From assembly GCF_016595235.1 (NCBI RefSeq), contig NZ_JAENHL010000008.1, positions 2,224,961 through 2,288,960 on the forward strand: DNA of 64,000 nucleotides, written 5' to 3'. The notes beneath the pieces are model-generated. The model worked only from the letters and a program-made list of their open reading frames with translations. It ran no database searches and was not told the origin of the DNA. Shown here one piece after another: positions 56,934 to 61,059 of the stretch. How positions within the stretch are numbered: position 1 is the first letter of the stretch; each line of letters begins with the position of its first letter. Source of the DNA: Taklimakanibacter albus. Lineage in GTDB: Bacteria; Pseudomonadota; Alphaproteobacteria; Rhizobiales; Aestuariivirgaceae. The translations under genes were made by a program, and so were the position numbers.

Positions 56934-57229
56934 AGCGCCGGGACTACCCTGCCGTCGCACATAAGATTCAGACATCCTTGAGTTGACCACCCGTTGCCGG
57001 CTCCGTCCTGAGTTGGTTGACAGAGTTGCCTATATGCAACACTGAGGATTCACGTGCGCTCACCATCGAATTCGAGTTGCGACGAATAACCGACACTCGC
57101 AGAGAGGGAGAATAATGTTATGTACGCAGATGCCAGCAAATTCCTCTGCGTAATTACAAACAAGAAGATTGAGACGGCGACTCGGCGGGCAGCGCCGTGA
57201 ATTTGCAACAAACTCAAGGAAACAGAGGC
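56934..57229. other. Intergenic leader of the porin gene
   Basis: With the repeat above, this is a gap of about 400 bases without a gene. A 16-base palindrome, GTTGC-CTATAT-GCAAC at 57025-57040, could be an operator for the porin. A sigma-70 box TTGACA is seen at 57017-57022, but no convincing partner box is at the right distance. AGAGGC precedes the ATG at 57230. I saw nothing else. Confidence 0.4.
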
Positions 57230-57952
57230 ATGAAATCATTCTACTTGGCTTGCGCCGGCGCATTGCTGCTGGGCTCATCGCTCACGGCGCCGGCGGCGGC
57301 CGCCGATCTCACCGACGATTACGCTTTCGCATGGGACGGCATCTATGCCGGCGTCCATGGCGGCTATCTCTGGGGCGATGCCGATGCCGAGCACGACACG
57401 CTCTCGGCCGATTTCGGCAAGAACTACGATCCTGCCGGCGGCTTCCTCGGCGCGCATGCGGGCTATCTGCATCAATTCGACAGCAATCTCGTTCTCGGCC
57501 TTGAAGCCGATTTCGACAAGGTCTGGGCCGATGGCGGGCTGGATCAGACCGACACGCCGGAATTCAATCCGTTCCCCGATGCCGATGGCGAGGCCAAGCT
57601 CAAATGGCAATCGTCGCTCAGAGCACGCTTCGGTTATGCCTTCGACCGCACGATGCCTTATGTCACCGGCGGCATTTCCTTCGCCCGGCTGCATTATTCG
57701 GAAGAGATCCTGCCCGAGACACCGATGTTCGACCAGGACGACAAGCGGACCATGTTCGGCTGGACGGTGGGCGGCGGCATCGCCCATGCCTTCAGCGACA
57801 ATTGGATCGGCCATGTCGAATATCGCTATACCGATTATGGCTCGGAGAAATTCCTGCCGACGCCCGTCGCCAATCAGCCGGGTGATTCGAGCAAGATCGA
57901 TCTCGAGACCCATGCGGTCAGGGTCGGCATCAGCTATCTGCTCGGCAACTGA
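57230..57952 (+). CDS. Outer-membrane beta-barrel protein (Omp25/31-like)
   Basis: A 240-residue outer-membrane protein. The signal peptide is at about 1-25 (FYLACAGALLLGSSLTAPAAAA). The mature part has alternating strands, with the family opening WDGIYAGVHGGYLWGDADA, the phrase GGFLGAHAGYLHQF and LVLGLEADFD. It ends with VRVGISYLLGN, an aromatic-poor but typical barrel end. ATG 57230 was chosen over an earlier GTG because it begins the signal peptide. It could be a porin or an adhesion/immunity-type barrel. Confidence 0.87.
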   Translation: MKSFYLACAGALLLGSSLTAPAAAADLTDDYAFAWDGIYAGVHGGYLWGDADAEHDTLSADFGKNYDPAGGFLGAHAGYLHQFDSNLVLGLEADFDKVWADGGLDQTDTPEFNPFPDADGEAKLKWQSSLRARFGYAFDRTMPYVTGGISFARLHYSEEILPETPMFDQDDKRTMFGWTVGGGIAHAFSDNWIGHVEYRYTDYGSEKFLPTPVANQPGDSSKIDLETHAVRVGISYLLGN

Positions 57953-57969: not shown

Positions 57970-58005
57970 GCGCCCATTCCGAGAACCGGAATGGGCGCTT
58001 TATTT
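57970..58005 (+). terminator. Rho-independent terminator after the porin gene
   Basis: A perfect 12-bp stem (GCGCCCATTCCG at 57970-57981 with 57987-57998) and a 5-base loop, followed by TTTATTT. It overlaps the end of the convergent GNAT gene and could act in both directions. Confidence 0.82.
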
Positions 58006-58620
58006 ATGGGCGGCGAAGACCAGCAGGTCGAGGCGGGCGCCGTCCGGGCGCAGGACCTCGCGGCGCAAACGCGCCTCGAAGCGCATCTCGCGCGGTCCGT
58101 CGATGCGGGTGGCGCGCATCATGTGGAACAGCATCCGGCGATTGGTCGCCAGCACACCGACCGAGACCTTGTCGATGTCGCGCTCATCGAAAAGATGGAA
58201 GTTCAAAGCCCGCGTGGTCTCGAAGATGAGATCGCTGCCGCGGCTCGCTTTGTCGATGATGATGGCGGTCAGCATGGCGCGTTTGTGCTGCAGATTGACG
58301 TCGACGGTATAGAAGCCGATCAGCGCCGAAGTGTCTTTCCGGGAGATGCCGATCGCATAACGCGCGCGATTGTCATAGGCGGCAAGGAAAGCGCGCAAAC
58401 GCTCGATCGTCCAGTTAACCTTGGGCAGATTGATGCCCTCCAGCACGTCGCGGTCGGCGAGCCAGCCCTGCATGACGGCGCTCGCGGCCTCGGCGCCGAT
58501 GCTGCGCAGCCGGAAATTCTCCGTCTCGATGGCGAGCGGCCTGCCGCCGGGCGGAGTTCGCCGGCCACCTCCCGTCGCCTGGATGCTGCCCGGTACTAAA
58601 CGGCGGCCTGGATGGGTCAT
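58000..58620 (-). CDS. GNAT-family N-acetyltransferase-like protein
   Basis: A 206-residue GNAT-fold acyltransferase. The core has FRLRSIGAEAASAVMQGWLAD at the N-terminal start of the fold, IGFYTVDVNLQHKRAMLTAII and SRGSDLIFETTRALNFHLFDE. These follow the RimJ/RimL-type pattern (strand four and the acyl-CoA loop). It is last in the ACP/P450 operon, 26 bases after the P450 stop. It would transfer an acyl group (from CoA or from the adjacent carrier protein) to an amine or hydroxyl group. Acceptor unknown. Confidence 0.75.
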   Translation of the reverse strand: MTHPGRRLVPGSIQATGGGRRTPPGGRPLAIETENFRLRSIGAEAASAVMQGWLADRDVLEGINLPKVNWTIERLRAFLAAYDNRARYAIGISRKDTSALIGFYTVDVNLQHKRAMLTAIIIDKASRGSDLIFETTRALNFHLFDERDIDKVSVGVLATNRRMLFHMMRATRIDGPREMRFEARLRREVLRPDGARLDLLVFAAHK

Positions 58621-58645
58621 GTCTTTCGTCTCATTCGTAAAGGGA

Positions 58646-59920
58646 TCACAGACGCACCGCCCGAACCGGATGACCGTGCCGCGGATTGAGGCTCAGGCAC
58701 CAGCGGAAGGACGGGGCTTCCGGCGACGTCAATTCCAGGCGAACCTCGTTCAGGATGGCGGCCAGAACGGTCATGACCTCGGCGGTGGCGAAATGCCGGC
58801 CGCCACAGACGCGCGGGCCTGTCGAGAAGGTCAACTTCGGCGCGCGGCCTTGTGCGGGGTCCGCCTGCAGATGCATACGCCAGGGATCGGGCCACCGATC
58901 GCGCGCATGATTGATGCCAATGATAGAGATCAGGACGAGATCGCCGGGCGCCACGACGCGGTCGCTCAACGGGTCCTCGGCCAGTGCTCTGAAGATGAGC
59001 ACCGGCGTCGGTGGGAATATGCGCATCGTCTCCGTCACGAAGCGGCTGAACTCTTCATCGCGCTGCAGCCCGGCGAGCGTGGCGCCGTCCGAGCGCCAGA
59101 CGTCACGCAGGCGCGCGCGCAGGGCCTCCTGAAGCTCCGGCTCGCGCGCCAGCAGGTAGATGCCCCAGCCGATGGCGGCGGCCGATGTCTCGGAGCCCGC
59201 GGCGAGGAACATCAGAAGCTCATGCTCGAGCTTGAATGTCTTGTCGGTCTCCTCGTGGCGCAGGAAGTCCGACAGCATAGGGTCGGCCGGCGTCATGGTC
59301 CGGCGGATCGAGCTCAGCCGTTGCAAGGCCTGATGGCGGAGCGCCAGAAAGGCTCTTGTGCGGCCGGGATCGATCGGCACGCGCGCTGCCGCATCGAGGC
59401 GATGGCGCGCCGAGAAGAAGGAATAGTCGACCGCATAATCCAGCATCGCGGCGATTTCGGAGAAATCCGAGAAGCCGAGGCTCGCCCATGAGCGGTCGAA
59501 CAGGGCCTCCATCAGGATACCGCTGGTGATGATGCGGAACAGGCCGTCATCGAGACGCGGACTTTTCCGCGCAGCCTCGGCCAGCAGCAAATCGGCACCC
59601 AGCCGGCCATGATGGCGGCTCAACGCAAAGATGCGGGCCGGGTCGCATTTGCTCAAATGATGCTGACTGAGCCTCTGGCGCGACTGCCAGGCCTCGCCAT
59701 TCTCGGTGAGGCGCGACGGCCCGATGACCTGGCTCAGCCAGCCGAGCGCCTTTTCGTAACGCTCCGTCCTGAGGCGCAGGATGCGCTCGGCGTCGGCGGG
59801 ATCCTGGACGACCAGGAAGGAACGGCCGCCGAAATCGATCTCGACATTGCGGCCGTTAGACTCATCCGCCAGCCGGAAGAGCCGCTCCGCCAGATCGTCC
59901 TCAGCGCGGCCGCTATGCAC
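58646..59920 (-). CDS. Cytochrome P450
   Basis: A 424-residue soluble bacterial P450. The heme cysteine is Cys372 in FSTGPRVCGGRHFATAEV. The I-helix oxygen-binding motif is AAGSETSAAA (about 240-249), and the ExxR pair is Glu297/Arg300 (ETMR). Residues after about 300 match the usual meander. There is no membrane anchor, so it is a class I type needing ferredoxin or a similar donor. It overlaps the acyl carrier protein gene by 8 bases, so translation is coupled. An ACP-bound substrate, as for BioI-type or carrier-protein-dependent hydroxylases, is plausible. Confidence 0.92.
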   Translation of the reverse strand: MHSGRAEDDLAERLFRLADESNGRNVEIDFGGRSFLVVQDPADAERILRLRTERYEKALGWLSQVIGPSRLTENGEAWQSRQRLSQHHLSKCDPARIFALSRHHGRLGADLLLAEAARKSPRLDDGLFRIITSGILMEALFDRSWASLGFSDFSEIAAMLDYAVDYSFFSARHRLDAAARVPIDPGRTRAFLALRHQALQRLSSIRRTMTPADPMLSDFLRHEETDKTFKLEHELLMFLAAGSETSAAAIGWGIYLLAREPELQEALRARLRDVWRSDGATLAGLQRDEEFSRFVTETMRIFPPTPVLIFRALAEDPLSDRVVAPGDLVLISIIGINHARDRWPDPWRMHLQADPAQGRAPKLTFSTGPRVCGGRHFATAEVMTVLAAILNEVRLELTSPEAPSFRWCLSLNPRHGHPVRAVRL

Positions 59921-60161
59921 GTTGCGCAGCAGCCTTCATCTCTTCGATCATCCGGGCGAGATCGGCGACGGTGCGGACATCCATCAGCGCCACCGGATCA
60001 GGCTCCTGACCGGTGGCCTCCTCGATCTCCAGCATCAATGCTTCGAAAGTAAGACTGTCCATGCCTTTGATCTCGGCGATATCGGCGTCATCCGCTATCG
60101 CGTCGGCCGGAATAAAAAAGGCGCGCGCGATAATCGTCTTGATCGTTGCCAATTCGCTCAA
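59913..60161 (-). CDS. Acyl carrier protein (P450-associated)
   Basis: An 82-residue acyl carrier protein. The phosphopantetheine serine is Ser36 in IKGMDSLTFEALML, followed by the helix-III pattern VRTVADLARMI. TTG at 60161 is preferred as start: it follows GGGAGAAAATT, and the longer open frame upstream (into a repeat with 5' hairpins) shows no family match. It overlaps the P450 gene by 8 bases. It is distinct from fatty-acid AcpP (no DSLD motif) and is probably a dedicated carrier for the P450 pathway. Confidence 0.85.
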   Translation of the reverse strand: MSELATIKTIIARAFFIPADAIADDADIAEIKGMDSLTFEALMLEIEEATGQEPDPVALMDVRTVADLARMIEEMKAAAQRA

Positions 60162-60196: not shown

Positions 60197-60271
60197 CTAG
60201 TGTCCCGAATCCGAAGTTCGCCACTGCCAGCGGCACCTTCCGAGCGAACTTCGGATTCGGAAGGACACTAG
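60197..60271. repeat. Long hairpin element 1 (CTAGTGT arms)
   Basis: CTAGTGTCC-CGAATCCGAAGTTCGC (60197-60221) pairs with the mirror arm at 60244-60271, with a 3-base bulge. It lies 35 bases upstream of the ACP start, so it would be in its 5' untranslated region or promoter. Element 2 downstream shares the CTAGTGT ends and the GAAGTTC core. Confidence 0.8.
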
Positions 60272-60285
60272 AAAACTTAATGATT

Positions 60286-60361
60286 CTAGTGTGCTTTTGA
60301 ACGCGAAGTTCCTGTCGGTGCAAGCCGCCTGATATCAGGAACTTCGCGTTCAGCACACTAG
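60286..60361. repeat. Long hairpin element 2 (CTAGTGT arms)
   Basis: CTAGTGTGCTTTTGAACGCG plus AAGTTCCTG (60286-60314) pairs with the arm CAGGAACTTCGCGTTCAGCA to CACTAG (60336-60361), with a 3-base bulge. It has the same ends and core as element 1 but different flanking bases, so the two are related members of one family rather than a recent copy. Confidence 0.8.
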
Positions 60362-60657: not shown

Positions 60658-61059
60658 ATGGCCGCACAGGCTAAAATGCTGAGCTCGTGGATTCACGTCG
60701 CCAATCCCAGCCGCTCGACCCGGGACGTGCTCAACCTCACGGTCGGCGGAACGATCATGTTGAATCAGGAGGCGGTCAATGCCGTCGCCGGCCGGCTGAT
60801 GGGCGTCACCGTCAGGGTGATGGACAGCGACACCGCCGATGACGATCTGCTCCTCACCGATACGAGCTTTCAGATCGGCGTGCACGACACCTCGCCGCGG
60901 CCATTCATCCTGAGCGTGATCGTGCCGGCGTCCAAGCTCAACAACTGCGAGCCCTTCTATGAAAGCCGGGCCGAGATCTACTGCAAGGTGTCGGCGCGCT
61001 CCGGCACGGTGCAGACCAATGCGGCGAATACATCGACGGTGAGCGTCGCGATCGATTGA
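60658..61059 (+). CDS. Hypothetical 133-residue protein
   Basis: A 133-residue protein with no recognised family, no signal peptide and no membrane segment. It has alternating hydrophobic strands (VLNLTVGGTIML, LMGVTVRVMDS, FILSVIVPASKL) and two cysteines (NNCEPF, IYCKVSA), suggesting a small beta-barrel or sandwich. It is followed at 61074 by a GC-rich repeat. It faces the ACP/P450 operon divergently and may be functionally linked to it. The ribosome site is enclosed in a stem. Confidence 0.65.
   Translation: MAAQAKMLSSWIHVANPSRSTRDVLNLTVGGTIMLNQEAVNAVAGRLMGVTVRVMDSDTADDDLLLTDTSFQIGVHDTSPRPFILSVIVPASKLNNCEPFYESRAEIYCKVSARSGTVQTNAANTSTVSVAID

Follow-up and report, generated by a model that had tools for sequence, protein, structure and literature searches.

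Several described systems resemble parts of the locus considered here. BioI and the peptidyl-carrier hydroxylases are cytochromes P450 that act on carrier-bound acyl groups, carrier sets of the MbtM/MbtL/MbtK type consist of a fatty acyl-AMP ligase, a carrier protein and a GNAT acyltransferase, and RimL, RimJ and the lasso-peptide acetyltransferase use acetyl-CoA. For HlyC-type enzymes and for CdiC, two papers describe fatty acylation of lysine residues in exported proteins (PMC10450907, PMC8510554); in the case of CdiC, the acyl group is reported to be 3-hydroxydecanoate and the target a lysine of the surface protein whose gene lies beside that of CdiC (PMC8510554). In a stretch of 64,000 nucleotides from Taklimakanibacter albus (contig NZ_JAENHL010000008.1, positions 2,224,961 to 2,288,960; the whole stretch is referred to below as the window), genes for an acyl carrier protein (ACP), a cytochrome P450 and a GNAT acyltransferase lie beside a gene for an outer-membrane protein (OMP). 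No description of such loci was found in the open-access literature searched. The reading preferred here, to which a probability of roughly 0.5 is given from sequence comparisons, is that of a dedicated cassette in which the carrier would hold an acyl group, the P450 would oxidise it and the GNAT would transfer it to the neighbouring OMP.

The three genes form one minus-strand run (58000-60161), in agreement with the sequence-only reading, which had described the 82-residue carrier protein, its 8-bp overlap with the P450 gene and the GNAT gene downstream. The carrier gene (59913-60161, minus strand, 82 aa) begins with a TTG codon preceded by a GGAGAA site, an arrangement repeated in genome G055, and its product matches PF00550 with 44.1 bits (cut-off 20.8). 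The phosphopantetheine serine, Ser36, lies within GMDSL and is invariant in all five of the aligned cassette carriers. The P450 gene (58646-59920, minus strand, GTG start, 424 aa) matches PF00067 with 108.7 bits (cut-off 22.8), and its product contains AGSET with the I-helix threonine, ETMR as the ExxR motif, and FSTGPRVCGG with the haem cysteine. The GNAT gene (58000-58620, minus strand, 206 aa) follows the P450 stop codon after 25 bases; in the Pfam scan (E up to 0.001) its product matched PF13302 alone (27.8 bits, cut-off 25.4), with no match to PF02794 (HlyC). In line with the earlier statement that fatty acid synthase, ketosynthase and thioesterase genes are missing nearby, none was recognised in 50-64 kb of the window, where the open reading frame list was inspected by eye and seven proteins were scanned against families. 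The OMP gene, absent from that earlier account, is located at 57197-57952 on the plus strand (likely ATG start at 57230; PF13505, 64.5 bits, cut-off 28.7) and is convergent with the GNAT gene, with 47 bp between the stop codons.

Relatives of the P450 were sought in overlapping draws of genomes at four taxonomic ranks, with 69 from the family, 397 from the order, 385 from the class and 398 from the phylum, and close relatives were rare throughout. Under profile A3, the P450 of G390 scored 573 and that of the window 550 bits (both in the profile), that of G893, outside the profile, 350 bits, whereas no other P450 exceeded 213 bits; because of this gap, a distinct P450 subfamily is visible. Its core comprises ten loci: the window, G055, G041:C14, G042:C2, G038, G390, G245, G107, G020 and G893. 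The P450 of G055 (Rhizobiales bacterium Y(2018), the one match in a single-protein scan of genome contigs) is 97% identical to that of the window, and the cassette has the same gene order and about this degree of identity there; no close match to the P450 was found in G054, G056 and G057, which belong to the genus of the window. Conserved ACP-P450-GNAT neighbourhoods, for which a search had been proposed, were found in G055 and, in another genus, in G041 and G042, where the three proteins are 28-51% identical; the three families also occur together in G893, a member of another class of the phylum, in which a single run contains a GNAT, a 1679-aa autotransporter, a second GNAT, a fatty acyl-AMP ligase (NF006624, 600.4 bits, cut-off 600), an ACP and the P450. 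In G038, the third genome of the G041/G042 genus, the order is OMP, ACP and then the P450, inside which the contig ends. An N-terminal domain is fused to the P450 in G390 and G245, both of which have a divergent PF05150-type OMP at the locus; in G107 the same domain is encoded separately, alongside an OMP and the P450. The possibility that homologous P450s are never adjacent to carrier proteins, named beforehand as evidence that would speak against the proposal, does not hold: an ACP gene adjoins the P450 in six of the nine core loci (the window among them) whose flanks could be read, the loci without one being G390, G245 and G107. As a side observation, the ExxR arginine is replaced by cysteine in the P450s of G042 (L038:8710-9963) and G038 (L041:6094-7199), both of which keep the haem cysteine motif.

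The association with OMP genes is recurrent as well. An OMP gene was located no more than 1.5 kb from the P450 in 8/9 core loci versus 1/74 other P450 loci (Fisher p = 2e-9; p = 1.5e-7 after merging the near-duplicates window/G055 and G042/G038, or after leaving out the window and G055). The sole exception among the core loci is G893, where the end of the autotransporter gene lies ~3 kb upstream of the P450, and the sole positive among the others is G041:C1 (L027). The comparison set of 74 is the sum 51 + 22 + 1, the last being L027, which was listed as positive because an OMP was seen there and was counted with the other P450s. The core locus G020 was left out of the nine; its contig starts ~230 bp before the P450, and the remainder of the contig showed no OMP. 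Two loci with more distant P450s were found separately and enter none of the counts: on a plasmid of Loktanella salsilacus an autotransporter gene is directly upstream of the P450, and on a plasmid of Gemmobacter aquarius (L105) an Lpg1974-type OMP belongs to the same gene run, together with alpha/beta hydrolases and a sulfotransferase.

The GNAT family was also searched alone. Using the window-seeded profile A5, matches were detected in 15 of 297 genomes of the order, with 14 loci scoring at least 75 bits. An OMP gene lies beside the GNAT gene or in the same run at 11 of these 14 loci (10/13 without the window), namely the window, G117, G105, G191, G179, G024, G135, G102, G216, G000:C6 and G054:C2; since the threshold was chosen after the results had been seen, the fraction becomes 11/17 if the three weaker matches (G242, G104 and G113, the last with 51.5 bits and flanks that were not read) are taken as misses. 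These pairs span several bacterial families and orientations, including the order OMP-GNAT-ACP in G117 and, in G191, four OMPs with an AMP ligase, a GNAT and an ACP. The OMPs of G000:C6 and G054:C2, one of which was scanned, gave no Pfam family match, and their assignment relies on homology to the OMP of G041 (itself a weak Pfam porin match, E 0.0074) and on reading by eye. When counting is limited to Pfam PF13505 matches no more than 300 bp from the GNAT, 7/14 loci are positive (binomial 1.6e-12; 6/13 and 1.2e-10 without the window), whereas random placement would give at most 0.65% per locus. A convergent pair of a GNAT and an annotated 'outer membrane beta-barrel protein' occurs in Mesorhizobium AR02, with no P450 annotated in that stretch. 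In 258 genomes of the class of G893, GNAT matches were confined to G893 and one weak match.

A reverse search from the OMP side, covering 30 PF13505 loci, gave three with a GNAT of the window family, two of them already known and one new. The new locus, G042:C1 (L184:5108-8258), contains a radical SAM/B12-type enzyme (DUF4070), a GNAT and an ACP, convergent with an OMP gene, and continues with a sulfotransferase and a GT61 glycosyltransferase gene (PF04577), the latter two genes from the OMP. A sulfotransferase is thus common to this locus and to the Gemmobacter P450 locus L105.

Another tailoring enzyme was detected at the second such locus of the window genome, G000:C6, where the order is GNAT, OMP, OMP, GNAT, cryptic P450, ACP, OMP. 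Genes of the cryptic type, with products of ~342 aa, precede the ACP once in G000:C6 and twice in G054:C2 (L128:10848-11873, L129:5052-6074 and L129:6334-7365). Pfam recognises neither of the two proteins scanned. Nevertheless, the haem-type motif FGAGxHSCxGKQ is present, twelve weak PDB matches were obtained (best E 0.01), nine of which are P450s by their listed names and the other three (NascB, NzeB and AspB) presumably P450s too, and hhalign aligned the cryptic profile with the window P450 subfamily (94.9%, E 4.8e-8). Therefore, these proteins appear to represent a second, divergent P450 family in OMP/GNAT/ACP loci, with one member in the window genome.

The domain fused to the sister P450s may give a connection to known protein acylation. 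The domain of G390, G245 and G107 has no direct PF02794 match (E up to 0.1), nor does that of Gemmobacter (E up to 0.01); no NCBIfam match was obtained, and two PDB matches (E 0.4 and 1.7) are not credible. A direct assignment of the domain to HlyC was accordingly rejected, the link running through homologues only, and its assignment to the GNAT fold was likewise abandoned, as hhalign lent it no support; its predicted model is poor (predicted local distance difference test, pLDDT, 54). Two homologues were scanned for Pfam HlyC (cut-off 25), scoring 25.9 bits in G182 and 13.1 bits in G083. Of six further matches of the domain, L192 and L197 adjoin RTX-repeat proteins and L193 an OMP; in genome terms, the RTX-repeat neighbours occur in G182 and G083 and the OMP neighbour in G130. 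L194 and L196 have no OMP, RTX, carrier or ketosynthase neighbour within ~1.5 kb. The remaining match, L195, is a domain-family gene in G083 close to a carrier protein gene and a ketosynthase-like gene. In Methylobacterium bullatum (L198), a protein with 13 RTX-type motifs is encoded ~2.2 kb away. Given the HlyC link of the homologues and the HlyC/CdiC precedent, the P450 subfamily can be placed, by inference, in acyl-carrier-dependent protein acylation.

The genes, their motifs and their recurrent association are all observed, and the set counts as a genuine, conserved unit linked to outer-membrane proteins. Since the cassette lies beside an OMP gene and its relatives do so far above chance, its products may together make an oxidised acyl group and couple it to the OMP. 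We infer the chemical steps, the acceptor and the acyl group as follows. Once in its holo form, the carrier protein would receive an acyl group, either from fatty acid synthesis or through an acyl-AMP ligase whose gene lies elsewhere; the window genome has one ligase of the G893 type (E up to 1e-30), ~1 kb from an ACP on a different contig, in what by eye resembles a sphingolipid gene cluster. The P450 would then oxidise the carrier-bound acyl chain, and the GNAT would pass the oxidised product from the carrier to the adjacent OMP, acylating an amino group there (on a lysine or at the N-terminus), probably in the cytoplasm and on the OMP precursor before Sec export. The carrier/P450/acyltransferase route proposed in the sequence-only reading is upheld in so far as the set is conserved (in G055, G041 and G042, and in G893 with a ligase before the carrier); the acceptor, which that reading had left open, is the part that changes, as the neighbourhoods point to an OMP.

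Several points weigh against the transfer of an oxidised acyl group to the OMP. The support for acylation consists of gene neighbourhoods throughout. The window OMP gene is convergent with the GNAT gene and is therefore hardly co-transcribed with it, PF13505 genes are abundant in the window genome (24 in 7.17 Mb), the paired OMPs belong to several families, and no special lysine or motif common to them was seen by eye among 13 aligned. The window cassette has no recognisable gene for an acyl-AMP ligase, a phosphopantetheinyl transferase or a P450 redox partner, and GNAT-fold enzymes usually take acyl-CoA. The OMP profile had been trained on paired OMPs, recovering 27/30 of the loci found with Pfam PF13505, and a flank shorter than 800 bases on one side was present in 18/73 comparison loci (without L027) versus 2/9 core loci. 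Among the GNAT loci, G124 (AMP ligase-GNAT-ACP), G054:C1 (GNATs and ACP) and G200 have no OMP in the stretches read, nor does the weak match G1183 (64.8 bits); the weaker matches G242 and G104 also have none, and their flanks resemble sugar gene clusters by eye. Finally, the predicted GNAT model (pLDDT 71) has as its top structural match a RimL-type enzyme (Z 13.5, root-mean-square deviation (rmsd) 2.2, 137 aligned), with which an AAC(6') enzyme ties for first place (Z 13.5, rmsd 3.5, 146 aligned). RimJ (Z 12.2), the lasso-peptide acetyltransferase (Z 12.1) and FdhC (5ktc; Z 12.0, rmsd 3.2, 147 aligned) follow, and further structural or profile matches are SpeG, a polyamine enzyme, and MccE. 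The fold is compatible with more than one kind of acceptor, because the model resembles RimL, RimJ and the lasso-peptide enzyme, equally AAC(6'), and at slightly lower scores sugar and polyamine enzymes.

Chief among the rivals is acylation of a sugar or small molecule, in which the GNAT would N-acylate an amino sugar, an amino acid or an amine with the P450-tailored, carrier-bound acyl group, giving an acylated small molecule or surface glycan, and the OMP would be unrelated or an envelope helper. It is considered unlikely. The sugar and small-amine N-acyltransferases among the GNAT matches (FdhC, SpeG, AAC(6') and MccE) are consistent with it, as are the polysaccharide-type genes that by eye border G000:C6 and G054:C2, the sugar-cluster-like gene sets around G242 and G104 and the PF04577 gene near the OMP of G042:C1; however, sugar genes were not recognised at most paired loci (read by eye, with family scans of some), OMPs of several types, autotransporters included, adjoin the cassettes, and the domain fused to the sister P450s appears, through a homologue, to be related to HlyC.

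A smaller chance is given to uptake and oxidation of a hydrophobic compound, which the OMP would admit and the P450 oxidise, the carrier and the GNAT disposing of the product. Such a role would agree with the recurrence of P450/OMP adjacency and with the alpha/beta hydrolases and sulfotransferase of the Gemmobacter locus, but a carrier protein and a GNAT would be unexpected parts of it, some GNAT/OMP pairs have no recognised P450, and autotransporters are not uptake porins. Slighter still is the chance of aminoacyl-carrier chemistry as in small nonribosomal pathways, where the P450 would hydroxylate a carrier-held amino acid and the GNAT would N-acylate it: P450s acting on carrier-bound amino acids are known, and the ligases of G191 and G124 match TIGR01733 below its cut-off (183 and 205 bits versus 317), yet the sole ligase in an ACP/P450 locus, that of G893, is a fatty acyl-AMP ligase by NF006624, and the window cassette has no recognisable adenylation gene. 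Least probable is that the OMP neighbours arise as a side effect of preferred insertion beside the many Omp25-like genes, since the numerous PF13505 genes and the accessory distribution of the cassette within the genus (no close match in G054, G056 and G057) would allow for it, but the observed adjacency far exceeds the random-place baseline and extends to other OMP families and to operon-like OMP-GNAT-ACP and GNAT-autotransporter-GNAT arrangements.

If an oxidised acyl group is indeed transferred to the OMP, dedicated enzymes would acylate barrels of the outer membrane with chemistry tailored by a P450, so that the HlyC/CdiC principle would reach porin-like proteins, and the GNAT family, the cryptic P450 family and orphan carrier proteins would gain a functional hypothesis. 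Tentatively, and with more doubt than confidence, the loci may be grouped into an undescribed class of envelope modification, built from modular loci in which barrels and autotransporters would receive oxidised acyl groups from a carrier through a transferase of the GNAT or HlyC-related kind, the tailoring enzyme being interchangeable (P450, cryptic P450 or radical SAM/B12-type).

Two other features were noted upstream of the cassette. A palindromic interspersed repeat of ~150 bp (60201-60351), with two inverted repeats having perfect 17-bp arms, lies ~40 bp upstream of the carrier start; it has 8 strong copies genome-wide, including this one, is missing at the corresponding site of G055 and is judged to be an insertion upstream of the carrier gene, outside the proposed mechanism. 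An open reading frame at 60658-61059 (plus strand) encodes a 133-aa protein without a Pfam or NCBIfam family and is kept in G055.

Compared with known systems, the window GNAT is similar to RimL, RimJ and the lasso-peptide acetyltransferase in its predicted fold, but differs in having a carrier protein gene in the same run. In G893, GNATs share a run with an ACP and a fatty acyl-AMP ligase, which recalls MbtM/MbtL/MbtK, whereas siderophore genes were not recognised there, a P450 is added and an autotransporter is the partner gene. As for BioI and the peptidyl-carrier hydroxylases, the window P450 is likewise encoded beside a discrete carrier protein, but no biotin or synthetase genes were recognised nearby, the neighbours being a GNAT and an OMP; BioI was named by none of the five NCBIfam matches of the window P450 and was not among the 60 of 285 PDB matches listed, no direct comparison with BioI having been made. 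The closest likeness in principle is to CdiC and HlyC (PF02794), by which a protein destined for export or for the cell surface is lipidated from an acyl carrier through the product of an adjacent gene, CdiC using a hydroxylated fatty acid; for the present locus, the same is predicted from genes, and the domain of the sister P450s may, through its G182 homologue, be related to PF02794. In contrast, the window enzyme is a PF13302 GNAT without a PF02794 match and has its own carrier and P450, and its presumed partner is a PF13505-type barrel instead of an RTX or CdiA protein. The cassette is thus most likely a variant of the carrier-dependent acylation of exported proteins, a variant itself not previously described.

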